Shown here: positions 2,656-27,261 of the stretch, piece after piece
How the letters are laid out: each line of letters begins with the position of its first letter
Numbering within the stretch: the first letter of the stretch is position 1
Assembly (NCBI GenBank): GCA_009925925.1
Contig: RFQA01000009.1
Span: 1-35,220 of the forward strand
From: Betaproteobacteria bacterium
GTDB taxonomy: Bacteria > Pseudomonadota > Gammaproteobacteria > Burkholderiales > Burkholderiaceae_C
Reading direction: 5' to 3'
Length of the DNA: 35,220 nucleotides
Program-made: the position numbers and the translations under genes
The notes under the pieces: generated by a model
What the model was told of the DNA's origin: nothing
The model's input: the letters and a program-made list of their open reading frames with translations, nothing else
Databases searched by the model: none

Positions 2656-2710
2656 GCGGGCATTGTAGGAGGCTGTGCACAATGCAGGCTCTATGCACCA
2701 GGAAAGCCCC

Positions 2711-3511
2711 ATGACCGACAGTTTCACCCCCGATGTGCACGGCCACATTGCCGCTTTGATGATTTACCCGGTGAAATCACTCGCTGGAATCTCGGTGATG
2801 GAGGCCCGTCTGCTGGAGACCGGCCTGGAGTGGGACCGTCACTGGATGGTGGTGGACGCAGAGGGCCTGTTCCTGACGCAGCGCGAATGCTCGCGGATGG
2901 CTTGGGTGCAACCCCGCATCACAGCCAATGCCTTGGAGCTGCACGGACCAGGATTGGAGCCTCTTGTGGTGCCGCTGCAAGCGCGAGGCCCTTTGTGCCG
3001 CGTGCAGGTGTGGGATGACACGTTGGATGCCATGGACATGGGGGAGGACGCCGCTTTGTGGTTGCAGCAAGTATTGGGCGAGCCCGGTGTACGGCTGGTG
3101 CGCTTTGCTCCGCAGGTGCAACGTCCGTGCAGCACGCGCTGGACAGGCGGTGCACCCAGCCACACCCAGTTTGCCGACGGCTACCCGGTGTTGGTGACTA
3201 CCGATGCTTCCATGGATCCCCTCAACGCCCGACTGGCCGCCGCCGGATTAGCCCCTGTCGGGATAAGCCGCTTCCGACCCAACCTGGTTCTGGGTGGGCT
3301 GGATGCGCATGATGAAGATCACCTCACGGTGCTGGAAGTGGAGATGGACGCAGAGCGTCAAATCCGTCCCCGTCTGGCCTTGGTCAAGCCCTGTGCCCGC
3401 TGCCCGATTCCAAACATTGATCCCGTCACGGCTCAAAGCCATCCGGGCGTCGGTGACGCCTTGATGGCCTACCGGCAGGATGCCCGGGTGAACGGCGCGA
3501 GCACGGAATGA
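2711..3511 (+). CDS. MOSC domain-containing protein with N-terminal MOSC_N barrel, C-terminus short
   Basis: A 266-residue protein. The ATG at 2711 is preferred over ATGs at 2675 and 2693 because AGGAAAG at 2700-2706 lies at good spacing and MTDSFTPDVHGHIAALMIYPVKS gives the usual start of a MOSC_N beta-barrel (YPVKSL). The MOSC domain follows, with SRFRPNLVL and the conserved cysteine in VKPCARCPIPNID. MOSC proteins bind sulfurated molybdenum cofactor and reduce N-hydroxylated compounds or carry sulfur. The protein ends just after MAYRQDARVNGASTE, where relatives continue with an FG.N segment and a final strand, so roughly 25-30 residues seem to be missing (from memory of the family). The last 43 bases overlap the 3' end of the convergent sensor gene. 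Confidence 0.87.
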   Translation: MTDSFTPDVHGHIAALMIYPVKSLAGISVMEARLLETGLEWDRHWMVVDAEGLFLTQRECSRMAWVQPRITANALELHGPGLEPLVVPLQARGPLCRVQVWDDTLDAMDMGEDAALWLQQVLGEPGVRLVRFAPQVQRPCSTRWTGGAPSHTQFADGYPVLVTTDASMDPLNARLAAAGLAPVGISRFRPNLVLGGLDAHDEDHLTVLEVEMDAERQIRPRLALVKPCARCPIPNIDPVTAQSHPGVGDALMAYRQDARVNGASTE

Positions 3512-5307
3512 GGCGTGAGAGGTGCTCTGTCTGAGTTGCCGTCATCTTTGGAGGGCAGGGCTGCAGGCATCGTTGGTGCAGGCTCCAGGAAGCGAATGGG
3601 GCGACGGGTGCGGGGAGACATGCCGTGCAAAACGTCTTGCAGCTCTTGCAGGACTGTGCGCTTGTCGGCGACTACCTCGGTCAACAGGGCACAGCTGATG
3701 TGAAATTGCAGCGTGACTTCCGGGCGCAGTCCGGGCAGTGGGATCAGGCCGGAGGCCACCAGGCGGACCATGCGCTCGGTGAGTTCCTGGCGTGATGCCA
3801 CTCCGTCAAGCACCAAGCCGAAGCGGGCCGTATCGACGCGGCCAGCGGGATCCACGTCGCGCAATACGCGGTGAAGTTTGACGGCCGCACGCAAAAGGCA
3901 TTGTTCGGCAATAGCGTCACCATAAGACTCACGCAAGTAGCTGTAGTTCACCACTTCCACCATCACGATGGCCGATGGCTCCCTGTTCTGGCGCGAACGC
4001 TTTATCGCCAGCTCTACCTGGGTATCGAACAGCGGGCGGGTCAACAGGCCGGTCAGCGCATCCTGCGTGGGAAGCGCATCTGCCCGCTCCTGAACTTCGC
4101 GCCGTTCCCGGGCGCGCAAATGCAGCGCTTGCTGTAACAAGGGAACCGACAAGGCCACCGCTGCCACCATCAGGTAGCGGGACTGCCACCAGGCAGGGAG
4201 CAATTGCAACATTTGCAGCCCGATGTAAACGGTCACTGCGGCGTTAGGGATGTATGCGATCGTTAACCATCGGCCCACCGCATGTCCGCGTCGCCAGGTC
4301 TGTAGAGTCGCCACCAACAGCAGCAATGGGCTGAGGGTGAGGTAGACCGCATTGAATATGTCAGCCACGTTGCGGTCGACGGCAACACCTAGCAGTGCGA
4401 TGGGAATGCCGAAGCCTGCAACCCCATGGACAGCTTGCGACAGACGCGGGAAGCCCGCATCCAACGAGGTGATGTGTCGCACGAAGATAAGTGTCGCACC
4501 CAAGCCCAGAATGGGCATGCTGAAGTGGGTGTAGTTGGACCAGGCGGGGGATTGGGGCCACAACCACAAACCCGAAAGTCCTGTCATGCAGCTCACCACG
4601 ACCGCCATACCTGCGGCATAGAGCGTGTACCAACCATCGTCCGCGCTGCGGCTCTGCAAGTAGTGGATGGCGCACACGCCCACCAGCATGATGAGTGCTC
4701 CAAACAGCCCGCCCAGCAGCAGATGCTCCAGTTCCCTTTGGCTGTTGCGTTTGCTTTCGGTCGCGATCATTAGCGGCATCAGCGTGGGCTTGAAATTGCG
4801 GAGCTCTAAATAGATGTCATAAGCCCCTTCCGCCGGTACGTCGAGCTTGAAGTCGGCGTAGAGCGCAGGCCGGCTCCAGTTGTCGACTGGCAAGGTGTCT
4901 CCGGCCACCTGACGGGTCCAGGCGCCTTGTCCATCAGGTTGGTACAGTGCCGCGAAATCCAGGTAAGGCAGGGGAATGGCCAATGTCCACTTGGCCGTGG
5001 AGCGCGCATCACGCGCAAGACTCAGGCGCACCCAGACAGCATTGCCTTCCCGCAAGGGCAGGCTGCGTGCGGTGCTGGCCGGGCTGAAGCGGTTACGGTC
5101 CCGTTTGAGGATCTCGTCAATATTGCTTCTGCCATCCGGATCCACCAGGAAAGCCAGAGAGTCCTGTAGCCGGAAACTCCCTACGTTGTCGTCCAGTGTG
5201 TAAACGGTTTGCGCGCCCGCGTTGTGGCTGAACAGTGCCGCCCAGCACAGGATGACCATCGCCAGAGCGCGACGGGCGAGAGTGTGTGAGCGGGTGAGGT
5301 GTGTCAT
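3469..5307 (-). CDS. 7TMR-DISM membrane sensor with degenerate GGDEF domain (downstream paralogue)
   Basis: A 612-residue membrane protein: signal peptide at about 1-32 (AMVILCWAALFSHNAGAQ), a periplasmic 7TMR-DISMED2 beta domain at about 40-190 (VWVRLSLARDARSTAKWTL, then LELRNFKP), a seven-helix block at about 195-395, then a GGDEF-type fold at about 415-570 starting TQDALTGLLTR. Active diguanylate cyclases have GGDEF at the catalytic turn; here the aligned bases encode DTARF (residues 492-496), so cyclic-di-GMP synthesis is unlikely. A conserved tail SPRTRRPIRFLEP is shared with the upstream paralogue. Its ATG overlaps that gene's TGA by four bases, so translation is probably coupled. The last codons overlap the MOSC gene on the other strand. 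Inferred role: ligand-sensing partner or regulator rather than enzyme. Confidence 0.88.
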   Translation of the reverse strand: MTHLTRSHTLARRALAMVILCWAALFSHNAGAQTVYTLDDNVGSFRLQDSLAFLVDPDGRSNIDEILKRDRNRFSPASTARSLPLREGNAVWVRLSLARDARSTAKWTLAIPLPYLDFAALYQPDGQGAWTRQVAGDTLPVDNWSRPALYADFKLDVPAEGAYDIYLELRNFKPTLMPLMIATESKRNSQRELEHLLLGGLFGALIMLVGVCAIHYLQSRSADDGWYTLYAAGMAVVVSCMTGLSGLWLWPQSPAWSNYTHFSMPILGLGATLIFVRHITSLDAGFPRLSQAVHGVAGFGIPIALLGVAVDRNVADIFNAVYLTLSPLLLLVATLQTWRRGHAVGRWLTIAYIPNAAVTVYIGLQMLQLLPAWWQSRYLMVAAVALSVPLLQQALHLRARERREVQERADALPTQDALTGLLTRPLFDTQVELAIKRSRQNREPSAIVMVEVVNYSYLRESYGDAIAEQCLLRAAVKLHRVLRDVDPAGRVDTARFGLVLDGVASRQELTERMVRLVASGLIPLPGLRPEVTLQFHISCALLTEVVADKRTVLQELQDVLHGMSPRTRRPIRFLEPAPTMPAALPSKDDGNSDRAPLTPHSVLAPFTRASCR

Positions 5308-7058
5308 GCGGACAACGAGGAGCGCAAGCTCGCGACTTGGGTGGGTACGGGTTCGAGAAAGCGGATGGGTCGGCGGGTGCGGGGTGAGATGCCTGCCAAT
5401 ACTTCAGCCAATTCGTCGAGGGCCTTGGCGGGGGCAATCGGATTTTCCTGGAGCAGTACACAGGCGGCTTGGAACTGCAGCGTCACTTCCGGCTGCAAGC
5501 CCTGCAAGGGTATCAGACCGGATGCCACCAGCTTCACCAAACGCTCTGTGACGGCTTGCCGGGAGGCCACGCCTTCCATCAGCATGGCAAAGCGGGCACT
5601 GCCTACGCGGGCCGCCGGATCCACATCGCGCAGTACCCGGTGCAGCTTGATCACGGCGCGCAAGAGGCACTGTTCGGCGATCGGGTCCCCCATGCTGCTG
5701 CGGATATGTTCGTGGTTTACCACGGTCACCAGCACCAAAGCCACGGGCTCGCGCCCGCTGATCGCCCGCTGGTAGCCATCTTCCAGGTGGGATTGAAATG
5801 CGTCGGGGGTGAGCAAACCTGTCAAAGCATCTTGAGTGGGCAGGTGCTCTGCCCGGGCGGCAATTTCCTTGCGGTCATGGGTAGCACGACCCAATGCATA
5901 GACCAGTGCCGGCACGGAAGCGGCCACGGTGAGCGTCAGCAGATATCGCAATGGCCAGAAGGCAGGCAGGTAGCCCCCGGCCTCCAGGGTCATCCACAAC
6001 ACCATGCCGAACTGCGGGGTGTACGTCCACAACAGCCAGGCCCCCAGTGGAGAGCCGGTGCGCCAATTGAGCCATGTGGCGGCAAGGCCCATGGCGGTGC
6101 CCACCAAGAGTGTCCCTCCGGCAATCAGGTCCGCAGTGGAGCGATCCACCACCACATAGCTGAATACAGAGGCCAACGAAGCCCATGCCATCACCTGTAA
6201 TGCACGATCAAACTGCGGGTGGTGGGTGTTCAGTGCGTAGAGGTGTCGACCGAACAGCAACGCCCCCCCGAGGGCGGTGACCGGTAGCACGCTGTTGGCG
6301 TAATCAGCCCAGGCTGGCGCGTCGGTCCATATCAAGGCATTCAGTACGCCATTGAATTGGCTCAGAGCCGTGACGATCAGCACGCTGTATAGCGCTGCGC
6401 CCAGGTCAGAAATGTTACGGAACTCCGCATACCGCATCAGTGAAAGCACGGTCAGTGTGAGCACCAAGCCGAACACCAGCCCGAGCACGATGCTTTCCAT
6501 CAAGCGTTGCGCTTCGCGCACGCTGGCAGGACTTATGCGCAGTGGCAGGGGGAGCGGTTTGAAGTTGCGCACTTGCAGCAGCAGGTCCTGGGGCTGACCT
6601 GCCGGAAGGTTTAGCTCGAACTCCGGATACAAGCCGCGGATGGCCCAATGGGTTTGGGAATGCGTATCCCCGGCGGTTTGCGGGTACCAGGCTCCATTAC
6701 GCAGCTCGTACAGAGTGACGTAGTCTAGGTAAGGCTGCGGAATGTTGAGGACCCAGCGAGACGTATTCCCGGCTGCCCGCACTACGCGCATCTTGATCCA
6801 CAAGGTGTTGCTCTCGTTCAGGCTAGCGACCTGAGTTGTGGGAATGGTTTCAAAAGGGGCGGTCAGTGCATTCTTGACGTCTGCCGTGCGGCCGTTTTCC
6901 AGCCATTGCAATGTGCGGCCTTGGACTGTCACGCAGGTGGTGCCGTTACCGAGTACCAGTGTGTCTGGGGGAGCGGTTTCCGCGGCACTGGCGCTCCAGC
7001 CACCCACCCCTATCCAGAGTGCCAGCGTCACCAACAGGCGAGGAAACAGGTATGGCAT
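5304..7058 (-). CDS. 7TMR-DISM membrane sensor with degenerate GGDEF domain (upstream paralogue)
   Basis: A 584-residue protein with the same order as its downstream neighbour: signal peptide at about 1-26 (ending WSASAAET), 7TMR-DISMED2 domain (LWIKMRVVRAAGNTSRWVL), seven-helix block, then a GGDEF-like domain beginning TQDALTGLLTP. The catalytic turn is GSARF at residues 486-490 instead of GGDEF. The two proteins share long identical stretches outside the catalytic turn, such as LVASGLIPL and EVTLQF, and the tail SPRTRRPIRFLEP, so they arose by tandem duplication. The start at 7058 is 31 bases from the divergent ychF start; no good ribosome binding site is visible. The pair overlaps as ATGA and should be one operon. 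What it senses cannot be read from the sequence. Confidence 0.88.
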   Translation of the reverse strand: MPYLFPRLLVTLALWIGVGGWSASAAETAPPDTLVLGNGTTCVTVQGRTLQWLENGRTADVKNALTAPFETIPTTQVASLNESNTLWIKMRVVRAAGNTSRWVLNIPQPYLDYVTLYELRNGAWYPQTAGDTHSQTHWAIRGLYPEFELNLPAGQPQDLLLQVRNFKPLPLPLRISPASVREAQRLMESIVLGLVFGLVLTLTVLSLMRYAEFRNISDLGAALYSVLIVTALSQFNGVLNALIWTDAPAWADYANSVLPVTALGGALLFGRHLYALNTHHPQFDRALQVMAWASLASVFSYVVVDRSTADLIAGGTLLVGTAMGLAATWLNWRTGSPLGAWLLWTYTPQFGMVLWMTLEAGGYLPAFWPLRYLLTLTVAASVPALVYALGRATHDRKEIAARAEHLPTQDALTGLLTPDAFQSHLEDGYQRAISGREPVALVLVTVVNHEHIRSSMGDPIAEQCLLRAVIKLHRVLRDVDPAARVGSARFAMLMEGVASRQAVTERLVKLVASGLIPLQGLQPEVTLQFQAACVLLQENPIAPAKALDELAEVLAGISPRTRRPIRFLEPVPTQVASLRSSLSA

Positions 7059-7089: not shown

Positions 7090-8181
7090 ATGAGTTTGAA
7101 GTGTGGCATTGTAGGCCTGCCCAACGTGGGCAAAAGTACCCTTTTTAACGCCTTGACCAAGGCGGGCATTGCTGCAGAAAACTACCCGTTTTGCACGATC
7201 GAGCCCAACGTGGGCGTGGTGGAAGTACCTGATCCGCGCCTGCAACAATTGGCGGACATCATCACCCCCGAGCGCATTGTTCCTGCCATCGTGGAGTTTG
7301 TGGACATTGCCGGCTTGGTGGCAGGCGCCAGCACCGGCGAAGGCTTGGGCAACAAGTTCCTGGCGCACATCCGTGAAACAGATGCCACCATCAATGTGGT
7401 CCGTTGCTTCGAAGACGACAACGTGATTCACGTGGCTGGCAAAGTAGACCCGATTGCCGACATCGAAGTTATCCAGACGGAGCTGTGCCTGGCGGACTTG
7501 GGTGCTGTCGAAAAAGCTTTGCACCGTGTGACCAAGCTGGCGCGCTCCGGCGACAAAGAGTCCGTCAAACTGGTGTCTATCCTGGAGCGTTGTCAGGCTG
7601 CATTGAACGATGCCAAGCCCGTTCGCACGATTGATTTCAGCAAAGAAGAGTTGCCTTTGTTGAAGCAGTTCTTCCTGATCACGGCCAAGCCCGCTATGTT
7701 TGTGGCGAACGTATCGGAAGACGGCTTTGAAAACAACCCGCTGCTGGACCGATTGACCGCTTTTGCCAAGGCACAAGGTGCCCCGGTAGTGGCCATTTGC
7801 GCCAAGATGGAAGCGGAACTCTCCGAGATGGATGATGCGGACCGCTTGGAGTTCTTGAAAGAACTGGGTCAGTCCGAGCCAGGCCTGAACCGATTGATCC
7901 GCTCCGCCTACAGCTTGTTGGGCCTGCAGACCTATTTCACAGCGGGCGTAAAAGAAGTGCGCGCTTGGACCATCCATGTGGGAGACACCGGCCCCCAAGC
8001 TGCTGGCGTGATTCACACCGATTTCGAAAAGGGCTACATCCGTGCCCAGACCATCGCGTTTGACGATTTCATCGCTTTCAAGGGCGAACAGGGTGCCAAA
8101 GATGCCGGCAAGATGCGCGCCGAAGGCAAGGAATACGTCGTCAAGGACGGCGACGTGATGAACTTCCTGTTCAGTTCCTGA
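7090..8181 (+). CDS. ychF: Redox-regulated P-loop ATPase YchF (Obg family)
   Basis: A 363-residue protein, the exact usual length. It opens [17 protein letters not shown] with the P-loop GLPNVGKST at residues 9-17, followed by the G2/G3 segments [10 protein letters not shown] and DIAGLV. The usual G4 NKxD is replaced by NVSED, the family trait behind preference for ATP over GTP. The C-terminal TGS domain (about 281-363) ends [16 protein letters not shown]. YchF binds ribosomes and has been linked to translation start selection and oxidative stress response. AGAGG lies 6-10 bases before the ATG. It is followed after 22 bases by a transporter gene on the same strand. Confidence 0.97.
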
Positions 8182-14548: not shown

Positions 14549-15271
14549 ATGCGGCGTGTAGTGTTGGGTGCTATTGGCGCGCTGCTTATTGTTGGTGGTC
14601 TCGCCGAATGGCGGGTGCATGCTCTGCGGGCGGACTACCAGGAAGTGCGGCTGAGTAGCGCGAGTTCCGTTCGAATGCTTTCGCTCTATTTGCCTGCGAG
14701 GCAGAAACTAATCGCCGATCCTGGACTTGCTATCGCAACAGCTTTTCAAATCTCCCGGCAACCTGGCCCGAAAGACTATGTTTCGTCCATGCGCCAAGCG
14801 GGGATAGGATTTGGATTGTTAAGGCAAGTATTCCTCGACCCTGATTCGCAAAGTGAGTGGAAAAACGAGGCGGCATTTCAGGCATTAACTCTCCTAGTGC
14901 GTATGCCTTGGGATGACAAGTTAGTGAGAGAGGCTTCAGGCCTGTCAATGCATTTGCGCGAAGCACTTGCCCGAGACGCTACCGCAACCCCTGACGAGCG
15001 CCGGATGGTTGAGGAGCTGCAGGAACTGGTCGCCATGCGGCAAGAAGGCGTGTCTGCGTTGCGAAAAAGCGTGACAGCCAAGCCGCTTGGTGAGCGTGAT
15101 GGCTGGCAAATGGGGTTGCACGACCTACGCTTGGGTTTGGCAGGCTGTTTGAAATTTCCGGAACCAGAGCTGGATGTTGCCTGGAGTGCCATCGAGCGTG
15201 GGTTTGGTCGCAACTGGCTGCAAAGGGAATGGATTTCAGGGTGGGATGCCGGACTGCTGCAAACGGTTCAA
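14549..15271 (+). CDS. Unknown membrane-anchored protein, 3' end lost at the hemL junction
   Basis: I do not recognise this gene. The frame opens with ATG three bases after gmhA and gives [21 protein letters not shown], one N-terminal helix likely to anchor it in the membrane, followed by a soluble helical segment with charged heptad-like stretches ([23 protein letters not shown]). The frame stays open to 16441, but everything after about 15271 is antisense to conserved hemL, so the native end is probably missing. Several 60-base lines here count 48-57% GC, against 67% in gmhA nearby, which suggests a different origin. There is no good ribosome binding site; translation would rely on coupling to gmhA. 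It could also be a decaying fragment. Confidence 0.5.
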
Positions 15272-16456
15272 GCCGCGGTCCAGCAGGCCGTGGAACAGGG
15301 TGTTGAAACGCGCGTTGTCGGTGGTCATGACTTTGGCGTAGTTTTGCGGCAGTTCCTTGAAGAAGAAAAAGCCGAACATGCCACCCTCAGAGTCGCCGCA
15401 GAAGTCGATTCCCGCTTTGTCGGCTTCTGCTTGCAGGCCGCTGATCAAGGACTGTGTTTTGCGGCCCAAGTCTTCGTAGAAGCCGGGTTTGCTGATTTCT
15501 GCCAAGGTCGCCAAGCCGCAAGCGGTAGCCACCGGGTTGCCGGACAAAGTGCCCGCTTGGTACACCGGGCCCAAGGGGGCCAGCTGCTCCATGACCGCGC
15601 GCTTGCCGCCAAAGGCTGCCAAAGGCATGCCGCCGCCGATCACCTTGCCCATGACCGTCATGTCGGGCTCAAAGCCGGGAATGCTGCGGGCATAGACCTG
15701 CTGGGCGCTGCCGGGGGCGACGCGAAAACCCGTCATCACTTCGTCAAACACAAACAGGGCGCCGTATTCCGTGCACAGCTCGCTGCAGCGTTTGATGAAG
15801 GGCACGCTGGCGCGCACGAAGTTCATGTTGCCGGCAATCGGCTCAATCATCACGCAGGCCAGCTCTTTGCCGTGCAGGGCAAAAGCTTCTTCGAGTTGCT
15901 GGATGTTGTTGTACTCCAGCACCAAGGTGTGTTGCACCACTTCGGGCGGCACACCGGCGCTGGTGGGGTTGCCGAAAGTGGCCAATCCGGACCCTGCTTT
16001 GACGAGCAGCGCGTCGGCATGGCCGTGGTAGCAGCCTTCAAACTTCAAAATCTTGCTACGGCCTGTGGCGCCGCGGGCCAGGCGGATGGCGCTCATGCCA
16101 GCTTCGGTGCCGCTGCTGACCAGGCGCACCATGTCCATGCTGGGTACCAGTGCCAGGATGGCTTCGGCCAGTTCTACCTCACGTTCGGTGGGAGCACCAA
16201 ACGAGAAACCGTCGAGCGCTGCCTTTTGCACCGCATCCAGCACCGCAGGGTGGCCATGGCCCAGGATCATGGGACCCCAGGAGCCGATGTAGTCGATGTA
16301 GCGCTTGCCGTCGGCGTCCCAGAAGTAGGCGCCTTGCGCACGTTGCACGAAGCGGGGCGTTCCGCCCACGGCTTTGAATGCGCGCACGGGGGAGTTCACG
16401 CCACCGGGAATCACGCGCTTGGCGCGCTCGAAAAGGTCTAAGTTACGGTCTGTCAC
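15236..16456 (-). CDS. hemL: Glutamate-1-semialdehyde 2,1-aminomutase, C-terminally truncated
   Basis: A PLP enzyme that converts glutamate 1-semialdehyde to 5-aminolevulinate, the haem precursor. Residues 1-395 are fully HemL-like: [18 protein letters not shown] at the start, [36 protein letters not shown], and the PLP lysine K271 in [10 protein letters not shown]. After FHGLLDRG the protein should run about 36 more residues (VY.AP...EAGF...AHT and a final helix); instead it reads [11 protein letters not shown] and stops, giving 406 instead of about 427-433. No remnant of the normal end appears in either strand of the adjacent 700 bases. The start codon is GTG (16454-16456), 14 bases from the thiD stop, so the two form an operon. 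Whether the enzyme is active is open. Confidence 0.9.
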
Positions 16457-17753: not shown

Positions 17754-18152
17754 TTGAGTATGACCGCCCCCACCTTTAAAGTTCTGGTGATTGACGACAG
17801 CAACACCATACGGCGCAGCGCGGAAATCTTTCTCAAGCAGGGCGGGCACGACGTCCTGCTTGCCGAGGACGGGTTCGATGCATTGGCCAAAGTCAATGAC
17901 TACCAGCCTCACATGATCTTCTGCGACATCCTGATGCCGCGCTTGGATGGTTACCAGACCTGCGCCATCATTAAACGCAACGCCAAATTTTCGGGAGTCC
18001 CGGTCGTGATGTTGTCCTCCAAGGATGGTGTCTTCGACAAAGCGCGTGGCCGCATGGTCGGTGCGCAGGACTACCTCACCAAACCGTTCACCAAAGACCA
18101 GTTGCTGCAGGCTGTGCAGCAATTCGGTGCCGCATTGCAAGGAGCAGCCTGA
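17754..18152 (+). CDS. pilG: Twitching motility response regulator PilG
   Basis: A 132-residue stand-alone CheY-like receiver. The acidic pocket is IDD at about residues 13-15, the phospho-acceptor is D58 in FCDILMPRLDG, and the conserved lysine is in YLTKPF. In Pseudomonas PilG receives phosphate from the ChpA kinase and promotes pilus extension and cAMP signalling. The TTG at 17754 is used because GGAG (17741-17744) is nine bases before it; ATG at 17760 would remove two residues and is also possible. The stop overlaps the pilH ATG by one base (TGATG), so the pair is translated together. Confidence 0.92.
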   Translation: MSMTAPTFKVLVIDDSNTIRRSAEIFLKQGGHDVLLAEDGFDALAKVNDYQPHMIFCDILMPRLDGYQTCAIIKRNAKFSGVPVVMLSSKDGVFDKARGRMVGAQDYLTKPFTKDQLLQAVQQFGAALQGAA

Positions 18153-18517
18153 TGCCTATCCAAAAAGTACTGATCGTTGACGATTCCAAGACAGAGCTCC
18201 TCTACCTGACAGAGATTCTGCAGAAGAACGGATATACCGTCCGTGCGGCAGAGAACGCGGATGAAGCTTTCAAGCGTTTGGCTGAAGAAAAGCCCCAGTT
18301 GATATTGATGGACGTGGTGATGCCTGGCCAAAACGGCTTCCAGCTGACCCGCGCCATTAACCGCACCCCCGAGTACGCAGACATTCCTATCATCATGTGC
18401 ACCAGCAAGAGCCTGGAGACTGACCGGGTGTGGGGCATGCGCCAGGGTGCCAAGGACTACATCACCAAGCCGGTGGATGCATCCGAGCTGCTGGCCAAGA
18501 TCAAGGCTTTGGGTTAA
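18152..18517 (+). CDS. pilH: Twitching motility response regulator PilH
   Basis: A 121-residue CheY-like receiver beginning MPIQKVLIVDDSKTE, with phospho-acceptor D54 in LMDVVMPGQNG and the lysine of YITKPVD. In the Chp/Pil system PilH acts opposite or as a phosphate sink to PilG. Position second after pilG and before the CheW-type pilI matches the Pseudomonas order. The start overlaps the pilG stop by one base; pilI follows after 11 bases. There are no output domains, so it works by protein contact. Confidence 0.92.
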   Translation: MPIQKVLIVDDSKTELLYLTEILQKNGYTVRAAENADEAFKRLAEEKPQLILMDVVMPGQNGFQLTRAINRTPEYADIPIIMCTSKSLETDRVWGMRQGAKDYITKPVDASELLAKIKALG

Positions 18518-18528
18518 CGCAGCGCCCC

Positions 18529-19059
18529 ATGGCCAATAGAGAAGCACTTCGAGAACTACAGGCCCGGCTCGCCAGCCGGTTACAGGCCGCTCGTGCCGAA
18601 GGTATGTCGGTGGCATGGCTTGCGGTGCAGGCGGCGGGCCGGAAATACCTTTTTCCACTTAGCCAGTCTGGTGAGATCGTTCCGCTCACCCATGTCCAGC
18701 CCGTGCCCTATGCGGTGAATTGGTTCAAGGGAGTGGTGAACATCCGTGGCGGACTTTACGGTGTGGTGGATCTCGCTTCCTTTATGTCTGCAGAAACCGG
18801 GGAGCCGGTCCTGACCCCTGCTTCTCCAGAGCCCAGTGTCGTGACGCTGAACGCAGCTTTGGATGTGAACTGTGCCTTGCAGGTTGATGTTCTGTCCGGC
18901 TTGCGTGGTGCTGATGCGTTTTCCCAATCGCACGGCCCTGCAGAAGGTTCTCCTGCGTTTTTTGGTAATGTTTTTGTCGACAGTGCTGGAGAAGCCTGGC
19001 AAGAAATCAACTTGCGTATTCTTTCCCAGTCTCCACAGTTTTTGAGCATCAGCGCTTAG
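18529..19059 (+). CDS. pilI: CheW-like adaptor PilI
   Basis: A 176-residue protein with one CheW domain (about residues 25-170), which links the PilJ receptor to the PilL kinase. The ATG at 18529 gives MANREALRELQARLASRLQ, the normal start; the ORF track's extension at 18430 is an out-of-frame reading of pilH. The typical fold bases LFPLSQSGEIVPLTHVQPVP and WFKGVVNIRGGLYGVVDLA (the conserved N.RG turn) are present. It ends SQSPQFLSISA. It lies 11 bases after pilH and 20 before pilJ in the same operon. Confidence 0.9.
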   Translation: MANREALRELQARLASRLQAARAEGMSVAWLAVQAAGRKYLFPLSQSGEIVPLTHVQPVPYAVNWFKGVVNIRGGLYGVVDLASFMSAETGEPVLTPASPEPSVVTLNAALDVNCALQVDVLSGLRGADAFSQSHGPAEGSPAFFGNVFVDSAGEAWQEINLRILSQSPQFLSISA

Positions 19060-19079
19060 TTCATCCGTAAGGTCCCACC

Positions 19080-21341
19080 ATGTCCGTCGTCGATCAATTG
19101 AAAAATATTTTTTCCAAGAAGCAGCCTGAATCGGAGCTGGACTCGCGCCTGAGCCTTGCGATGCCTGATGCGACGGTCAACAGTGCCGAGCACGAAACAT
19201 TGCAAGAGTCGCAGAACGCGCCCCTTCAAACTCCGGCTCCCAGTTTGGCGGATGATCCTGTGGTGCCTGAAGGGGAGTTGATTTCAATTCCAATTTTGGG
19301 TCGGCGTACCGTGGTTCAGCACCAGCGTACGCTGTTTGTGCTTCTGGGCGGTGCTTTGGTGGTGCTGGCGGGTGTGACTTTCTATGCCTTGAACCAGTCG
19401 GATCGGGTTGCTCAGCAGCTGGGTGCGACAGGCCAGTCACTGATGCAGTCGCAGCGTTTAGCGAAATCGGTCTCCCAGGCGGTGGTGGGAAGCGCCCAGG
19501 CGTTCCCTGACGTGTCTGACAGCTCGGGCATTCTTTCCAAATCCGTCAAAGGTTTGCAGTCTGGCGATGACGAGATGCGCATCAACGCACTGAACGAAGA
19601 CTTCGCGCCTGAACTCGGGAAGGTGATTCCCTTGGTTGAGCGTGCTGACAAGAATGCGAAGGCCGTTATTGCGCAACAGAAAATGCTGACCCAAATCGGA
19701 TCTGCGTTGCGTTTGATCAATCGGCAGTCTTCTGATTTGCTGGAAGTAGCCGAAACCGTTGCTTCCCTCAAGCTGCAGCAAAATGCGCCCGCCGCTGAAA
19801 TTTCTGCGGTCGGCCAGTTGGTGATGTTGACCCAGCGTATCGGCAAGTCATCCAATGAGTTCTTGACTGCAGAAGGCGTGAGCCCCGAAGCCGTGTTCTT
19901 GCTGGGTAAGGACTTGAATACATTCAAGGAAATCTCGGAGGCGCTTCTTTCCGGTAGCACTGAGCTGCGTTTGACCGCGACCAAAGATGCTGCGACCCGC
20001 GAGCAACTCGAGGCGTTGATCAAGATGTACGAGGAAACCCGTGTTCAAGCGGGTGCGATTCTGGGTAACTTGCAAGGCTTGGTCTCTGCACGTGAGGCGC
20101 AGGGTGCGATCATTGCGGACAGCGAGCCATTGCGCCGCAACTTGGAGGATTTACAGGCCAAACTCTCAGGTCAAGCTGGTATTGGTGGGGCTTCTTTGGC
20201 TTTGTTGGTGGTTGCCGCATTGTTCGCTTTGGTTTGTGCTGGCGGTTTGTCTTACGTGCAGTTGCAAGACAGCCGTAAACGCCAGGTGGTTGCGGAAGAT
20301 CAGCGATTGGAAGCGGAGCGTCAGGAGCAGGAAGCCAAGCGTGTCAATGACGCCAACCAGGCTGCGATTTTGCGACTGATGAACGAATTGCAAACCGTTG
20401 CGGAGGGTGACCTGACCCAGGAAGCCACGGTGACCGAGGACATTACCGGCGCTATTGCCGACTCGGTGAACTACACGGTGGAAGAGCTGCGCTCGCTGGT
20501 GTCCAACGTACAGAACACAGCGGCCCGAGTCGCCCAAACAACCGCAGATGTGGATGCGACCTCTACCGAACTGCTTGCCGCTTCCAACGAGCAACTGCAC
20601 GAGATTCGTGAAACCGGTAAGTCCGTTCTGGATATGGCGGGTCGTATTAACGAAGTGTCGGCTCAAGCGCAGGAGTCTGCGACGGTAGCCCGCCAGTCGC
20701 TCCAGGCGGCGGAATCAGGTTTGCAGGCGGTGCAAAACGCGATCGGTGGTATGAACTCCATCCGTGACCAGATCCAGGAAACCTCCAAACGCATCAAGCG
20801 ACTTGGTGAATCGTCCCAAGAGATTGGTGAAATTACAGAGCTGATTTCTGACATTACCGAACAGACTAACGTTCTGGCGTTGAACGCAGCTATCCAGGCG
20901 GCATCTGCCGGTGAAGCCGGTCGAGGCTTCTCAGTGGTGGCGGAAGAAGTGCAGCGTTTGGCCGAGCGCTCTGCCGACGCGACGCGACAGATTGCGGCAC
21001 TGGTGAAAGCCATTCAGACCGACACCCAAGATGCTATCGGCGCGATGGAGCGTTCTACACAGGGTGTAGTGGAGGGGGCTAAGCTCTCCGATAACGCCGG
21101 TACCGCACTGACAGAAATTGACCGGGTGTCCCGTCAAGTGGCGGATCTGATTGAACAGATTTCGAATGCTGCGTCCCGTGAGGCCGGCCTTGCCAACGTG
21201 GTGGCGGACAACATCCAGCACATTTTCGCGGTGACCGAGCAGACCGGAGAAGGTACCCGTGCCACTGCAAACCAGGTGCGGGAACTGTCTCGCATGGCGG
21301 AAGAGTTGCGTCAGTCGGTTTCCCGATTCAAGATTTCCTGA
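19080..21341 (+). CDS. pilJ: Methyl-accepting chemoreceptor PilJ
   Basis: A 753-residue transducer. A soluble 80-residue N-terminus precedes TM1 (about 78-98, VLLGGALVVLAGVTFYAL); the ligand-sensing PilJ-type four-helix region follows to TM2 (about 365-390, LALLVVAALFALVCAGGLSY), then HAMP and the cytoplasmic signalling coil. The hairpin tip is near residues 595-635 (TNVLALNAAIQAASAGEAGRGFSVVAEEV). It forms arrays with PilI and PilL and reports surface contact or pilus state. Methylation would need PilK and ChpB, which are not in this cluster. Fifty-two bases separate it from pilL. Confidence 0.93.
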   Translation: MSVVDQLKNIFSKKQPESELDSRLSLAMPDATVNSAEHETLQESQNAPLQTPAPSLADDPVVPEGELISIPILGRRTVVQHQRTLFVLLGGALVVLAGVTFYALNQSDRVAQQLGATGQSLMQSQRLAKSVSQAVVGSAQAFPDVSDSSGILSKSVKGLQSGDDEMRINALNEDFAPELGKVIPLVERADKNAKAVIAQQKMLTQIGSALRLINRQSSDLLEVAETVASLKLQQNAPAAEISAVGQLVMLTQRIGKSSNEFLTAEGVSPEAVFLLGKDLNTFKEISEALLSGSTELRLTATKDAATREQLEALIKMYEETRVQAGAILGNLQGLVSAREAQGAIIADSEPLRRNLEDLQAKLSGQAGIGGASLALLVVAALFALVCAGGLSYVQLQDSRKRQVVAEDQRLEAERQEQEAKRVNDANQAAILRLMNELQTVAEGDLTQEATVTEDITGAIADSVNYTVEELRSLVSNVQNTAARVAQTTADVDATSTELLAASNEQLHEIRETGKSVLDMAGRINEVSAQAQESATVARQSLQAAESGLQAVQNAIGGMNSIRDQIQETSKRIKRLGESSQEIGEITELISDITEQTNVLALNAAIQAASAGEAGRGFSVVAEEVQRLAERSADATRQIAALVKAIQTDTQDAIGAMERSTQGVVEGAKLSDNAGTALTEIDRVSRQVADLIEQISNAASREAGLANVVADNIQHIFAVTEQTGEGTRATANQVRELSRMAEELRQSVSRFKIS

Positions 21342-21393
21342 TCGCACTTTGCCACGTTCGATTGCCCCGTGATTTCCTGGAGAGCCTGAACCC

Positions 21394-24300
21394 ATGTCGT
21401 CAAACCTTGTCGCTCCCGGAGACAATGAGCTTTCAATCACCGATCTCGGGCCATTGGCTTGGGTTTTGGATGAACTGCGCAAGTCACTTGATGGCGCAAC
21501 CAAGGCCATGCGCCGTTTCGTTCGCGACGCGGAACTCGCACGTGGATCTGATTTGACGGAGTTGGATGCAAGCCATTTGCGTATCGCCCGCCAGCAATTG
21601 CATCAGGCGGTGGGCGCGCTGGAAATGGTGGGCTTGGAGGCCCCGGCCAAATTTCTGAGGGCTATGGAGTCTTTGGCCCAGCGCTTTGTGCAGCGGCCCG
21701 AGCAGTGCAGTGATGAGGCAGCTAACTGCATGGAGCGCGCAAGCTTCGCCTTGACCGAATATCTTGATGGTGTCTTGAAAGGCAAGGCCGCTTCGTCTGT
21801 CGCCTTGTTCCCTCAGTACAAGACCTTGCTGGAAATGGCGGGTGCAGAGCGCATCCATCCAGCGGATCTTTGGCCACCAGCTTGGCAATGGATTTCTATT
21901 CCTGTTCCTGCAGGAACAGCGCCCCGGGCTATAGGGCCGGACTTACGCCGTGAAATGGATCACGCTGTTTTGCGTCTGGTGAAGTACGGCGATGAAAAAG
22001 CTGCCAGACGCCTTCAGGCAATTAGTCTGGGTTTGGCGGCTTCCGCGCATTCGGCCGAAGAGCAGACGTTCTGGATGGTGAGCGCCGCCTATTTTGAAGG
22101 CATGGCCTTGCGCCTGTTTGACGGTGATGTCTATACCAAGCGCGCTGCGTCCCGCATTCTTCAGCAATACGTCGCCTTGGCAAAAGGGCAGCATTCGGTC
22201 TCTGAGCGGCTGGCGCAAGATATCGTTTTCTTTTGTTCGCGTGCCATCCCGTCCGAAGGGTCTGAAGCTCCGGTGTTGGCGGCTGTCCGAAAGGCTTATG
22301 GACTCAACCGTAGCAAGCCGGTTGACTATGTCCATGAGCAGTTCGGGCGTTTTGACCCTGCCATGTTGGTGCTGGCCCGCAAGCGGATTGCTGCGGCAGC
22401 AGAAACGTGGTCTGCCCTTGCGGGTGGAGATGTCAATCGCTTGAAGCCAGCAGCCGAGCAGTTTGCTACGGTCGCCGATGCTGTGACCAAGCTGCATGCC
22501 GAAAGCGGCGAATTGGCCAAGGCATTGTCACGTGCGATTGAAGCTACCGCACGCACGGGAGCGGCACCATCACCGGCGGTGGCGATGGAGGTGGCAACCT
22601 CAGTGCTGTACCTTGAAGCAGCGTACGAAGACCTCGATCCCACTGACAACCAAATGGCAGATCGCAGCGCGCGTCTGGCCCAGCGACTGCAACATGTGAC
22701 TGACGGTGGTGAACCTGAGCCACTGGAGGGGTGGATGGAAGATCTGTACCGTCGGGTCAGCGACCGGCAGACCATGGGCAGCGTCGTTGATGAGTTGCGG
22801 ACTACCCTTGCGGAAGTGGAGAAATCGCTGGATCAGTTTTTCAGGGACCCCCGCGACAAAGGCCCTCTGCGTGAGGTGCCCAGCCAGCTGGCGCAAATGC
22901 GCGGCGTTTTTTCTGTGTTGGGCTTGGATCAACCTTCGGTCGCGGCGCTGCGCATGCGCGCAAGTGTCGAGCAGTTCCTTGTTGACGATGTAGATGAGGT
23001 CAGTGCGCGCAGCGGCATCTTTGAAAAGCTGGGGAATAGCTTGGGGGCGATGGGTTTTCTCATTGACATGCTCAGCTATCAACGCTCGCTTGCCAAAACC
23101 TTGTTCGTCTATGACGAAGAGCTTGGTGAGTTCAAGCCCCTGATGGGCCGCGAGCGGTCTGTATTGCCGGAGGCTTCGGCGACTTCTACAGATGGCATCG
23201 AAGATGACATGGCTGCCTTGGTCGCATTGACGGGCCAGTCTTTGCCTGAATCCATTGGCAATGCTGAGAAAACCCAACCGGTGGCGATACCTTTAGCGGC
23301 TGTAGCGGAAGCTGATGACAGCGCTGAACTGCTGGACATTTTTCTGGAAGAGGCTCGTGAAGTCGTTGTCCGTGGACGGGAGGCGATTGCCGCACTGCAG
23401 GTTGATCCAACCAATCTCGCAGACCAAACCACTCTGCGGCGTGCTTTTCACACCTTGAAGGGCAGTTCACGGATGGTGGGTTTGAATGACTTTGGCGAGG
23501 CAGCATGGTCGTTCGAGCAACTTCTGAATACATCGCTGGCAGAGCAGCGTCCGGCCAGCGAAGCACTGATTGCAACGTCGACCGAAGCGATGTCTGCTTT
23601 CGAGCGGTGGGTACACGATATTGAATTCGGCGACGCCAGCGCCTGGAGCGCTGCGGAGTTCCGCAAAACTTCCGATGCATTGCGTTTGCACGACCAATGG
23701 ATACCTTTGGAAATGCCTTTGGAATCTCCGGTGGAGTCGGCTGCACTGTTGCAGACAATTGAACAAAAGGCTCAGGAACCTCGGTCAGCATTGGAGCAGC
23801 CTCAGTTTGTTGAAGAGACCAAAGAGCTGATGGCGGATACGCAGGACTTCAGTCGTGTGGAGTTCGCCGCAACAGAAATCGGTGCCCTCGATATGCTAGA
23901 AACCGTGCCGGTGCAAGACTTTGAGCCCACGCAGTTGGCGGGCGAGCTTGCGCTTGTATCGACGGAGCCGTTGGGGCAAGCGGACTTTGCATCTACCCAG
24001 TTGTTTGACTTTGAGCAAACGAATGCGCTGGATTCACGTGTATCTTCTGTAGAAGTCCCCTTGGAACCTTTGCCGGAGCCCGAAGAGTTGGAGCTGGGTG
24101 ACTTCGATTTTGGGGACTTTGAGTCACCTGCAAAAACAGAACTGGCGCCCTTGGAAACCCGCTTGGCGGAAATGTATGTCGAAGAGCCGCTCCCGCCCAC
24201 GGATTTGGTCGCGATGGAGGATATGGAGCACCGCGAGTCTGCGTTGGTGTTGGAGTTTCCAGAGCCGTTGGCGGTTGCACCGACGCCGCCTGCTGAAGAG

Positions 24301-27261
24301 GTCGTAATCGCTGACACGGACGAGGGCATGAAAGTCGTCGGCTCCTTGCGCATGAGTATTCCGCTGTACAACGTCTATCTCAATGAGGCTGACGAGTGGT
24401 CGCGTCGCTTGCAAACGGAGCTGGGTGAATGGGCAATGGAGCTCAGAGATCCCATTCCGGACTCTGTGATTTCCCTGGCGCACTCCCTCTTGGGCAGTTC
24501 TGCAACAGTGGGTTTCATGGCGCTTTCCAATATGGCCAAGGCGCTGGAGCAAGCCCTGCAGCACGTGCAGTTGCACCGTCAAGTGCAGTCTGCACATGCG
24601 GCCGTGTTTTGCGATGCCGCCGAAGACATACGGCGCTTGCTTCACCAATTTGCCGCTGGCTTTGTGAAGGAAGCCGATGCCGAAGTGCTGCACTCTTTGC
24701 AGGTCATCATTGATACCGAGTTTCCCGCACCAGTGATAGAGGATTCCTCCGTCACTGAGCCAGAGCTTGAGCCGTTATCTGAGTCCATGGATGCTCCTGT
24801 AAATGAGGCCTCGCCCGTACTGGAGTCATTCGATATTGATGTGCCGGATGTTTTGCCGGCCGTGGTGGCAGAGGCTGCACCCCTCGTGATCCTAGATGAT
24901 CAGGATGACGATCTGGACGCTGAAGACCATCTGGATGCGGATTTACTGCCGATTTTTGAAGAAGAAGCTACGGAACTCATGCCCCAACTGGGTTCCGCTT
25001 TACGCCAATGGGTTGCCAGACCGGACAACCTCGGAGCCCGCAGCGAAGTGCTGCGCTTGTTGCACACACTAAAGGGTAGTGCGCGTTTGGCCGGTGCCAT
25101 GCGTATGGGTGAAATGGGCCATCGCATGGAGTCTTCCATCGAGCAGCTCGGAGCCGAAGGATTGCAGTCCATTCAGCTGGAGCCATTGCTGGGCCGCTTC
25201 GATTCGCTGCAAGCCGCGTTTTCCTCGCTTGGAGAGTTGCCGGAATCTGAAGCAGAAGGTGTGCCGGAAATACAAGGTTCCGCGCCCCTGGAAGCGGTGC
25301 CTGTGACGAATGACACGTCTGTTGTCGCTCCGCTGCCAAAAACGCTACCCGCTATCCAAGCGCCAGCGATGCCTATGCCGCGCGCGCAGGGTAACCAGTC
25401 CGTGCGGGTTCGCTCGCAATTGCTGGATCGGCTGGTGAATCAAGCCGGCGAGGTCATGATTACCCGCTCGCGGATGGATGAGCGTCTGACTCAGTTGCGG
25501 ACCTCTCTTGGTGAGCTCACCGGAAACCTGGATCGTCTGCGTCAGCAATTGCGTGACGTCGAGCTGCAGGCCGAATCTCAAATGCAATCGCGCCTCGCGC
25601 AGACCAAGGATTCTGCACAGGCGTTTGACCCCCTGGAATTCGACCGGTTCACCCGTGTTCAGGAGCTGACCCGCATGATGGCGGAGTCAGTCAACGACGT
25701 GGCGACTGTTCAGCGTAATTTGCAGCGCTCTGTCGAAGGTACGGAGGACGATCTGATTGCGCAGGGTCGGCAGGCGCGCGAGTTGCAAAAGGACTTGTTG
25801 CGTACTCGCATGGTGGAATTCGACGGAATCTCTGACCGCCTGTATGGTGTTGTTCGGCAGGCTTCCAAAGATGCAGGCAAGCAGGTAAAACTGGATATCT
25901 CCGGTGGCGCCATTGAAATCGACCGCGGTGTATTGGAACGGATGGCACCGGCGTTTGAGCACTTGCTCCGTAACGCGGTGGCGCACGGTATTGAGTCACC
26001 GGCCGACCGAACAGCCAGTGGAAAAGCGGCTTCGGGCAACATCGCTATCCAGGTCCATCAGGAAAGTAACGATGTGACTGTGAGTTTTACGGACGATGGT
26101 GCCGGACTGCACTTGGATCGCATCCGCGCAAAAGCAGAAGCCAAAGGCCTGATTGGCGTTGGTGATTCCATGAGCGATGCCGATGCTGCCAACCTGATCT
26201 TTATGCCAGGTTTCTCCACGGCAGACGAAGTCACTGAACTCTCGGGGCGTGGAATCGGGATGGATGTGGTGAGGGCAGAGGTGCATGCCTTGGGCGGACG
26301 TATCGAAACCCAAACCCAGCCGAATGTCGGTACAACCTTTAAATTGGTGCTCCCCCTGACGACCGCGGTGACTCAGGTGGTGATCTTGCGTATGGGTGAG
26401 TTTTCCATCGGCGTACCCGCCAACATCATGGAAACTGTCCTGCGCGTTCCAGCAGCCCAGCTGGATGCTGCGTATGCCCAGCAAGCATTCAGCTTCGGTG
26501 AGGAGCAGGTTCCCTTCTTCTGGGGTGGCGCCTTGTTGCAGGTCTCTGCCAAGAGTCTGGATGCGGGTGGCAAAACACTGCCACTTGCCATTTTTCGCAG
26601 TGCGGGCCAGCGCCTGGCTGTGCACATCGACGAAGTCTTGGGCAACCGCGAAGTGGTTGTGAAGAACTTGGGTCCGCAACTCGCTCGTTTGCCGGGGCTG
26701 GCCGGCATGTCGGTGCTGGCATCCGGTGCGGTGGTGCTGATATACAACCCCGTGGCACTGGCATCCGTGTACGGTGACCAGGCCCGTGGGCTTGGCGCTG
26801 AAGCGATTCCGGTAAATGCCTTGTTGGAAGCAACTTCAGATGTACCGGCAAAAGCTGCTGCAACGGCCGCGTCCGGAACCTCGCTGCCCTTGGTGTTGGT
26901 GGTAGATGACTCCATCACCGTACGGCGCGTGACCCAGCGCTTGCTCAAGCGTGAAGGTTACCGGGTAGCTCTGGCCAACGATGGTTTGCAGGCACTGGAA
27001 AAGCTACAGGAAGAAATTCCGGCAGTCGTACTGTCCGATATAGAAATGCCTCGCATGGATGGCTTCGACCTGGCCCGCAACATCCGCGCAGATGCCAAAC
27101 TGCAAGGGCTTCCCATCATCATGATCACCTCCCGCATCGCAGAGAAGCACCGTGAGCACGCCCGTGAGTTGGGCGTGGACCACTACCTTGGCAAGCCCTA
27201 CTCGGAAGACGAGTTGCTGGGTCTGGTGCGGGGTTATTGCTCAGTTGCAGCGCCCGCTTGA
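21394..27261 (+). CDS. pilL: CheA-like hybrid kinase with several Hpt domains and a receiver (PilL/ChpA)
   Basis: A 1955-residue histidine kinase of the twitching system. Three Hpt modules keep a histidine: H686 (FHTLKGSSRMVG), H1030 (AHSLLGSSATVG) and H1224 (LHTLKGSARLAG); two or more N-terminal Hpt-like stretches (LHQAVGALEMVGLEAP, VPSQLAQMRGVFSVLGL) lack one. Acidic linkers with DFEPTQL-like and ELGDFDFGDF motifs separate the modules. Then come the dimer and HATPase domain (LLRNAVAHGIESP, DDGAGL, GRGIGMDVV), a CheW domain, and a receiver with D1882 in LSDIEMPRMDGF. It phosphorylates PilG and PilH. GGAGAG lies before the ATG. Its last 28 bases overlap the convergent photolyase gene. Confidence 0.93.
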   Translation: MSSNLVAPGDNELSITDLGPLAWVLDELRKSLDGATKAMRRFVRDAELARGSDLTELDASHLRIARQQLHQAVGALEMVGLEAPAKFLRAMESLAQRFVQRPEQCSDEAANCMERASFALTEYLDGVLKGKAASSVALFPQYKTLLEMAGAERIHPADLWPPAWQWISIPVPAGTAPRAIGPDLRREMDHAVLRLVKYGDEKAARRLQAISLGLAASAHSAEEQTFWMVSAAYFEGMALRLFDGDVYTKRAASRILQQYVALAKGQHSVSERLAQDIVFFCSRAIPSEGSEAPVLAAVRKAYGLNRSKPVDYVHEQFGRFDPAMLVLARKRIAAAAETWSALAGGDVNRLKPAAEQFATVADAVTKLHAESGELAKALSRAIEATARTGAAPSPAVAMEVATSVLYLEAAYEDLDPTDNQMADRSARLAQRLQHVTDGGEPEPLEGWMEDLYRRVSDRQTMGSVVDELRTTLAEVEKSLDQFFRDPRDKGPLREVPSQLAQMRGVFSVLGLDQPSVAALRMRASVEQFLVDDVDEVSARSGIFEKLGNSLGAMGFLIDMLSYQRSLAKTLFVYDEELGEFKPLMGRERSVLPEASATSTDGIEDDMAALVALTGQSLPESIGNAEKTQPVAIPLAAVAEADDSAELLDIFLEEAREVVVRGREAIAALQVDPTNLADQTTLRRAFHTLKGSSRMVGLNDFGEAAWSFEQLLNTSLAEQRPASEALIATSTEAMSAFERWVHDIEFGDASAWSAAEFRKTSDALRLHDQWIPLEMPLESPVESAALLQTIEQKAQEPRSALEQPQFVEETKELMADTQDFSRVEFAATEIGALDMLETVPVQDFEPTQLAGELALVSTEPLGQADFASTQLFDFEQTNALDSRVSSVEVPLEPLPEPEELELGDFDFGDFESPAKTELAPLETRLAEMYVEEPLPPTDLVAMEDMEHRESALVLEFPEPLAVAPTPPAEEVVIADTDEGMKVVGSLRMSIPLYNVYLNEADEWSRRLQTELGEWAMELRDPIPDSVISLAHSLLGSSATVGFMALSNMAKALEQALQHVQLHRQVQSAHAAVFCDAAEDIRRLLHQFAAGFVKEADAEVLHSLQVIIDTEFPAPVIEDSSVTEPELEPLSESMDAPVNEASPVLESFDIDVPDVLPAVVAEAAPLVILDDQDDDLDAEDHLDADLLPIFEEEATELMPQLGSALRQWVARPDNLGARSEVLRLLHTLKGSARLAGAMRMGEMGHRMESSIEQLGAEGLQSIQLEPLLGRFDSLQAAFSSLGELPESEAEGVPEIQGSAPLEAVPVTNDTSVVAPLPKTLPAIQAPAMPMPRAQGNQSVRVRSQLLDRLVNQAGEVMITRSRMDERLTQLRTSLGELTGNLDRLRQQLRDVELQAESQMQSRLAQTKDSAQAFDPLEFDRFTRVQELTRMMAESVNDVATVQRNLQRSVEGTEDDLIAQGRQARELQKDLLRTRMVEFDGISDRLYGVVRQASKDAGKQVKLDISGGAIEIDRGVLERMAPAFEHLLRNAVAHGIESPADRTASGKAASGNIAIQVHQESNDVTVSFTDDGAGLHLDRIRAKAEAKGLIGVGDSMSDADAANLIFMPGFSTADEVTELSGRGIGMDVVRAEVHALGGRIETQTQPNVGTTFKLVLPLTTAVTQVVILRMGEFSIGVPANIMETVLRVPAAQLDAAYAQQAFSFGEEQVPFFWGGALLQVSAKSLDAGGKTLPLAIFRSAGQRLAVHIDEVLGNREVVVKNLGPQLARLPGLAGMSVLASGAVVLIYNPVALASVYGDQARGLGAEAIPVNALLEATSDVPAKAAATAASGTSLPLVLVVDDSITVRRVTQRLLKREGYRVALANDGLQALEKLQEEIPAVVLSDIEMPRMDGFDLARNIRADAKLQGLPIIMITSRIAEKHREHARELGVDHYLGKPYSEDELLGLVRGYCSVAAPA

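Follow-up and report, generated by a model that had tools for sequence, protein, structure and literature searches.

Paired 7TMR-DISM receptors with a degenerate GGDEF domain in a Rhodoferax-related genome and their relatives in the Comamonadaceae

The window analysed here is the whole 35,220-nucleotide stretch of DNA. It comes from a genome that has Rhodoferax as its closest named relatives and contains 44 GGDEF matches in total. Two of its genes, which overlap by 4 bp (ATGA), encode the proteins termed here receptor A and receptor B, each composed of a periplasmic 7TMR-DISMED2 domain, a 7TMR-DISM_7TM block, and a C-terminal domain of GGDEF type that is referred to below as the pseudo-GGDEF domain (Table 1). 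The three corresponding Pfam models (PF07696, PF07695, and PF00990) all exceed their cut-offs in A and in B, and by domain content both proteins are 7TMR-DISM receptors. BLASTP aligns the two over 514 aa at 44% identity (E = 1e-137), and coordinates, Pfam domains, and identity thus agree with the initial annotation of this DNA, which had described two overlapping DISM/7TM/GGDEF-fold paralogues with xxARF turns.

Table 1. Positions in the window of receptors A and B, their parts, and the two flanking anchor genes.
Feature	Positions	Strand	Evidence or remark
MOSC-type gene (named from sequence)	2675..3511	+	Convergent, 43-bp overlap with the end of B; second anchor; synteny
Receptor B, 612 aa: 7TMR-DISMED2, 7TM block, pseudo-GGDEF with turn DTARF	3469..5307	-	ORF, Pfam, model, Foldseek
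B conserved tail SPRTRRPIRFLEP, aa 564-576	3580..3618	-	Sequence, alignment
B pseudo-GGDEF, about aa 409-575	3583..4083	-	Pfam GGDEF E=3.7e-17; dN/dS vs G007
B degenerate turn DTARF, aa 492-496	3820..3834	-	Sequence, alignment
B RxxD (RDVD) at I-site position, aa 483-486	3850..3861	-	Sequence, alignment
B 7TMR-DISM_7TM block, aa 194-395	4123..4728	-	Pfam E=2.3e-24
B periplasmic 7TMR-DISMED2, aa 49-181	4765..5163	-	Pfam E=1.1e-17
Receptor A, 584 aa: 7TMR-DISMED2, 7TM block, pseudo-GGDEF with turn GSARF	5304..7058	-	ORF, Pfam, AlphaFold model, Foldseek
A conserved tail SPRTRRPIRFLEP, aa 558-570	5349..5387	-	Sequence, alignment
A pseudo-GGDEF, about aa 403-569	5352..5852	-	Pfam GGDEF E=8.8e-14; dN/dS vs G007
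A degenerate turn GSARF, aa 486-490	5589..5603	-	Sequence, alignment
A RxxD (RDVD) at I-site position, aa 477-480	5619..5630	-	Invariant in 16 aligned members
A 7TMR-DISM_7TM block, aa 188-390	5889..6497	-	Pfam E=5.7e-16
A periplasmic 7TMR-DISMED2, aa 60-175	6534..6881	-	Pfam E=7.6e-15
ychF (named from sequence)	7090..8181	+	Divergent, 31 bp from the start of A; locus anchor; Comamonadaceae synteny

By sequence and fold alike, A and B fall in the GGDEF superfamily. The AlphaFold models, which are single chains without ligands, have a mean pLDDT of 83 for A and 81 for B, and their top Foldseek matches are GGDEF domains throughout, with TM-scores (normalised by target) of 0.86 for B and 0.83 for A in the match to 3ign; on these models the GGDEF fold of both proteins is predicted to be intact. 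The tail SPRTRRPIRFLEP, noted previously in both proteins, is indeed common to A and B. It aligns with the canonical 'AKxxGRNRxxFF' and is what remains of the final strand of that domain, and its interpretation as a newly added motif was rejected on this alignment.

The catalytic residues have fared differently. Five active-site positions (metal/guanine and catalytic/binding) were scored as D327, N335, D344, E370, and E371 in PleD numbering, transferred to the family through alignment, and 45 family members were compared with other GGDEF domains of the window's genome and with five canonical 7TMR-DISM-GGDEF proteins. Neither A nor B retains the residues equivalent to N335, D344, E370, and E371; at the D327 position B has E, and A has lost the residue. 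The replacement of the catalytic turn recorded in the initial annotation therefore stands, but the loss is wider than had been claimed. Among the 45 members, whose rows are related to one another so that motif counts are not independent, none of the five residues is kept in 30, one in 14, and two in a single member, compared with all five in 34 of 42 own-genome GGDEF domains and in five of five canonical DISM proteins. Judged by these residues, the family is without a diguanylate cyclase active site, while R366 and F372 are retained in 45/45 members. The turn itself drifts (GEARF, DEARF, GSARF, DTARF, GTAQF, DTAHF, GTSHF, and others) between neighbouring blocks that are fixed, and xxARF as a strict family signature was accordingly rejected.

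The search for relatives covered the genus, family, and order of the window and gave none outside its GTDB family at a strict threshold. At E <= 1e-40, P0001 matches occur in 31 of 401 sampled family genomes and 18 of 141 genera, counts that include a degenerate sister group. Most core members, in Rhodoferax, Ramlibacter, and other Comamonadaceae, lie at one locus (dsbC, ubiH-like, MOSC, DISM, divergent ychF), and one subclade (L095, L104, L105, and L107) is located away from it. Each syntenic locus examined outside Rhodoferax holds a single copy and two copies are present in 14 of 33 positive Rhodoferax genomes, so that pairing, which the initial annotation had proposed to check, was rejected as a family rule on copy counts. 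A and B form two clades inside the Rhodoferax lineage, in which genomes with A alone are frequent, and this topology indicates that the pair arose in that lineage from a gene inherited vertically at one locus. Degeneracy extends to an older sister group, which is found at other loci. Because every member outside Rhodoferax is already degenerate, catalytic loss is ancestral and preceded the A/B duplication, as had been surmised. No operon partner was found at the A/B locus, where the neighbours (ychF, MOSC, ubiH-like, and dsbC) look housekeeping and unrelated, and a comparison of neighbourhoods revealed no common partner near the sister paralogues beyond the second syntenic locus. One sister pseudo-GGDEF 7TMR-DISM paralogue (L198, L202, L203, L205, L206, and L211) occupies another conserved locus, where it adjoins an rpoH-like gene (assigned by eye from the beginning of its sequence).

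Despite its lost active site, purifying selection acts on the pseudo-GGDEF domain with the same strength as on active cyclases. In simple pairwise NG86 estimates between the window and genome G007, its dN/dS is 0.011-0.013 in A (dN 0.0065) and 0.016 in B (dN 0.0115), no other part of the locus giving lower values, against 0.12-0.14 in the A and B sensor parts and 0.005-0.119 in 22 other GGDEF orthologue pairs from the same two genomes. The domain thus evolves within the range of intact GGDEF domains and far more slowly than its own sensors, in line with the selection for a non-enzymatic role that the initial annotation had suggested. A similar asymmetry separates the paralogues: within each of six genomes, A and B are 56-61% identical in the pseudo-GGDEF domain versus 32-35% in their N-terminal parts. 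No GGDEF gene conversion between A and B was seen, each forming one clade in both GGDEF-only and N-terminal trees. This identity pattern is as would be expected for two inputs feeding one output. With inputs that have diverged and an output surface that has been kept, the two receptors probably act on a common partner or on each other; an A/B heterodimer is possible and compatible with the data.

We propose that A and B are 7TM receptors with a pseudo-diguanylate-cyclase output that acts through conformation or partners and that neither makes nor generally needs c-di-GMP, an account that may equally well prove right or wrong. A periplasmic ligand bound to DISMED2 would alter the conformation of the 7TM block and signalling helix, and the pseudo-GGDEF domain would relay the signal by rearranging its dimer or by docking onto a partner whose gene lies elsewhere. 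That the A/B locus itself encodes no partner counts against this account. Duplication in Rhodoferax would then have yielded two receptors with different inputs and one conserved output surface. A broader version of this proposal, offered tentatively and with more doubt than confidence, is that the Comamonadaceae possess a set of 7TM receptors, expanded and specific to this lineage, in which the dead GGDEF domain serves as a c-di-GMP-independent output, with its basic site remodelled for another ligand or a dedicated partner, and that these receptors persisted in several genera after the entire network of c-di-GMP enzymes had been lost.

A credible though unlikely alternative is that the pseudo-GGDEF domain binds dimeric c-di-GMP at its I-site, through RxxD and a secondary arginine, and reports either inside-out to the 7TM and periplasmic parts or to a partner, in the manner of CdgA and PelD. 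An RxxD motif precedes the degenerate turn in A and B (RDVD in both) and is present in 39 of 45 members (R359 and D362; R359, counted separately, in 44/45). An arginine aligned with PleD R313 occurs in 40/45 members compared with 8/33 own active GGDEF domains, and the full set of RxxD and R313 occurs in 36/45. Within Rhodoferax, the gene is found in 0 of 43 genomes with <=12 first-look GGDEF candidates and in 32 of 45 with >=45, a co-occurrence with larger GGDEF complements that could mean a tie to c-di-GMP, with genome size and phylogeny as confounders. Retention of RxxD and R313 together with this co-occurrence would, taken alone, favour a c-di-GMP receptor. Set against it, D362 is replaced by N in some lineages that do have c-di-GMP enzymes (G456 and G160), and the enzymes of c-di-GMP metabolism that co-occur with the gene in Rhodoferax do not do so in seven other genomes that carry an orthologue.

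These seven genomes (G193, G184, G174, G108, G225, G195, and G096) are 96-100% complete; of the genomes used throughout the analysis, several are MAGs. No canonical GGDEF domain was detected in them, with no match better than 8e-20 where full-length canonical GGDEF domains of the window's genome match at about 1e-29 or better, and searches for EAL and for HD_5 (HD-GYP-type) domains found none. In six of them (all but G108), none of 47 GGDEF-like ORFs contains GG[DE]EF. Each of the seven has 4-13 degenerate GGDEF-like matches, several of the proteins being 7TMR-DISM pseudo-GGDEF receptors (loci L178-L233). All 19 genomes examined for PilZ have it, in most cases in the form of a single short protein. 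The seven genomes appear to have lost c-di-GMP signalling, although a divergent cyclase may have been missed. More than one genome shows this pattern: a family-wide scan found 14 of 400 genomes in which GGDEF matches are present but none is better than 1e-25. Six further genomes (G125, G213, G269, G116, G166, and G892), with best GGDEF matches of 1e-9 to 1e-23, are possibly cyclase-free too.

The orthologues of six of the seven cyclase-free genomes nevertheless keep an exact RxxD (the exception, G174, has RDVE), and the domain is still under purifying selection there. Between the cyclase-free genomes G225 and G108, dN/dS is 0.068 in the pseudo-GGDEF domain against 0.253 in the sensor and 0.214 in the 7TM block; in the more distant pair G195 and G225 the contrast is weaker (0.252 against 0.382 and 0.260, respectively). 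With RxxD conserved and the domain constrained in genomes of this kind, binding of c-di-GMP would not be the general reason for the motif. The suggestion of c-di-GMP sensing in the initial annotation, which had also called for inspection of the I-site, is therefore weakened: RxxD is retained in A, in B, and in most members, but gene and motif persist under selection where no c-di-GMP enzyme is detected.

It is distinctly improbable that the remodelled pocket binds some other ligand, such as (p)ppGpp or a further nucleotide, or has acquired another catalytic activity, with the recurrent basic residues at the N335 and E371 positions contributing to the new site. The substitutions are recurrent rather than random (N335 to K/R in 42/45, D344 to E in 44/45, E370 to A in 38/45, and E371 to R in 32/45), and structures of PleD with ppGpp and pppGpp (9g85 and 9g86) are among the Foldseek matches, but as general GGDEF folds; moreover, the E371 position is variable in the A clade (R in eight, Q in four, H in two, and E and N in one each). 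The GTP sensing considered previously fared worse still. FimX, a degenerate GGDEF protein with the motif GDSIF, senses GTP (review PMC8846402), and a degenerate site that still binds GTP and acts allosterically would follow that example. It is highly improbable here because guanine- and metal-binding residues are gone: nearly all members have other residues at the guanine contacts N335 and D344, E370 is replaced too, the core family has T, A, or S in place of the LxNR asparagine, and no member of the A clade keeps D327. GTP sensing of the FimX type was rejected on this basis. Plain decay, with the domains as leftovers of active cyclases, is barely credible and was rejected on substitution rates, since the turn does drift between members but no relaxation of dN/dS was found (0.011-0.016), reading frames are open, and synteny extends across many genera.

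No description of the pseudo-GGDEF 7TMR-DISM family was found in the literature covered, most subscription journals lying outside that coverage, but several known proteins resemble it in part. RgsP of Sinorhizobium meliloti shares with A and B the combination of 7TMR-DISMED2, 7TMR-DISM_7TM, and a degenerate GGDEF domain with RxxD; this domain (GGDQF) makes no c-di-GMP and keeps RxxD, and the growth function of RgsP is c-di-GMP-independent and resides in its N-terminal part (PMC6107284). RgsP differs, however, in adding PAS and an active EAL phosphodiesterase, in having an only mildly degenerate turn, and in belonging to the Rhizobiales, whereas in A and B the pseudo-GGDEF domain is the sole output and the best conserved part. 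A 7TMR-DISM protein with GGDEF output is also seen in NicD, which is an active cyclase, whereas the active site of A and B is gone. This GGDEF-containing 7TMR-DISM protein of Pseudomonas aeruginosa acts in biofilm dispersal (PMC6107284). Bdellovibrio CdgA (PMC3271064) and PelD (PMC7112168) each have an inactive, RxxD-bearing GGDEF domain, as do A and B, and bind c-di-GMP through it; their hosts make c-di-GMP, whereas the A/B family persists also where no c-di-GMP enzyme was found.

Two further proteins bear on a c-di-GMP-independent output. CsrD of E. coli, like A and B a membrane protein with a degenerate GGDEF domain, appears not to synthesize, degrade, or respond to c-di-GMP and works via protein partners (PMC5876332), but it is a GGDEF-EAL protein without a DISM sensor and its known partner contact is on its EAL domain. 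GdpS of Staphylococcus is a GGDEF protein with c-di-GMP-independent action in genomes without EAL, HD-GYP, and PilZ (PMC9714401); the A/B family is likewise kept in genomes in which no EAL or HD_5 domain was detected, although GdpS is a single gene with a conserved GGDEF motif, whereas degenerate GGDEF-like matches number 4-13 per genome for the A/B family. RgsP, CsrD, and GdpS are precedents for single steps of the conformational output proposed for A and B, and CdgA and PelD for its c-di-GMP-binding rival.

GGDEF domains are commonly annotated as diguanylate cyclases and tallied as a gauge of c-di-GMP signalling. The Pfam GGDEF model calls the A/B family above its cut-off although the active site is absent, and some genomes appear to have only such degenerate domains. 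A conserved RxxD likewise need not imply c-di-GMP sensing, and the family offers a natural setting for asking what the GGDEF fold does when c-di-GMP is absent.

Elsewhere on the plus strand of the window, positions 18152-27261 contain type IV pilus chemosensory (Pil-Chp-like) genes, including one for a PilJ/MCP protein (19080-21341) and another for a multi-Hpt CheA/ChpA-like kinase of 1955 aa that also has CheW and receiver domains (21394-27261). A 630-aa ORF on the same strand (14549-16438) has no Pfam match at E <= 1e-5 and may or may not be a gene.
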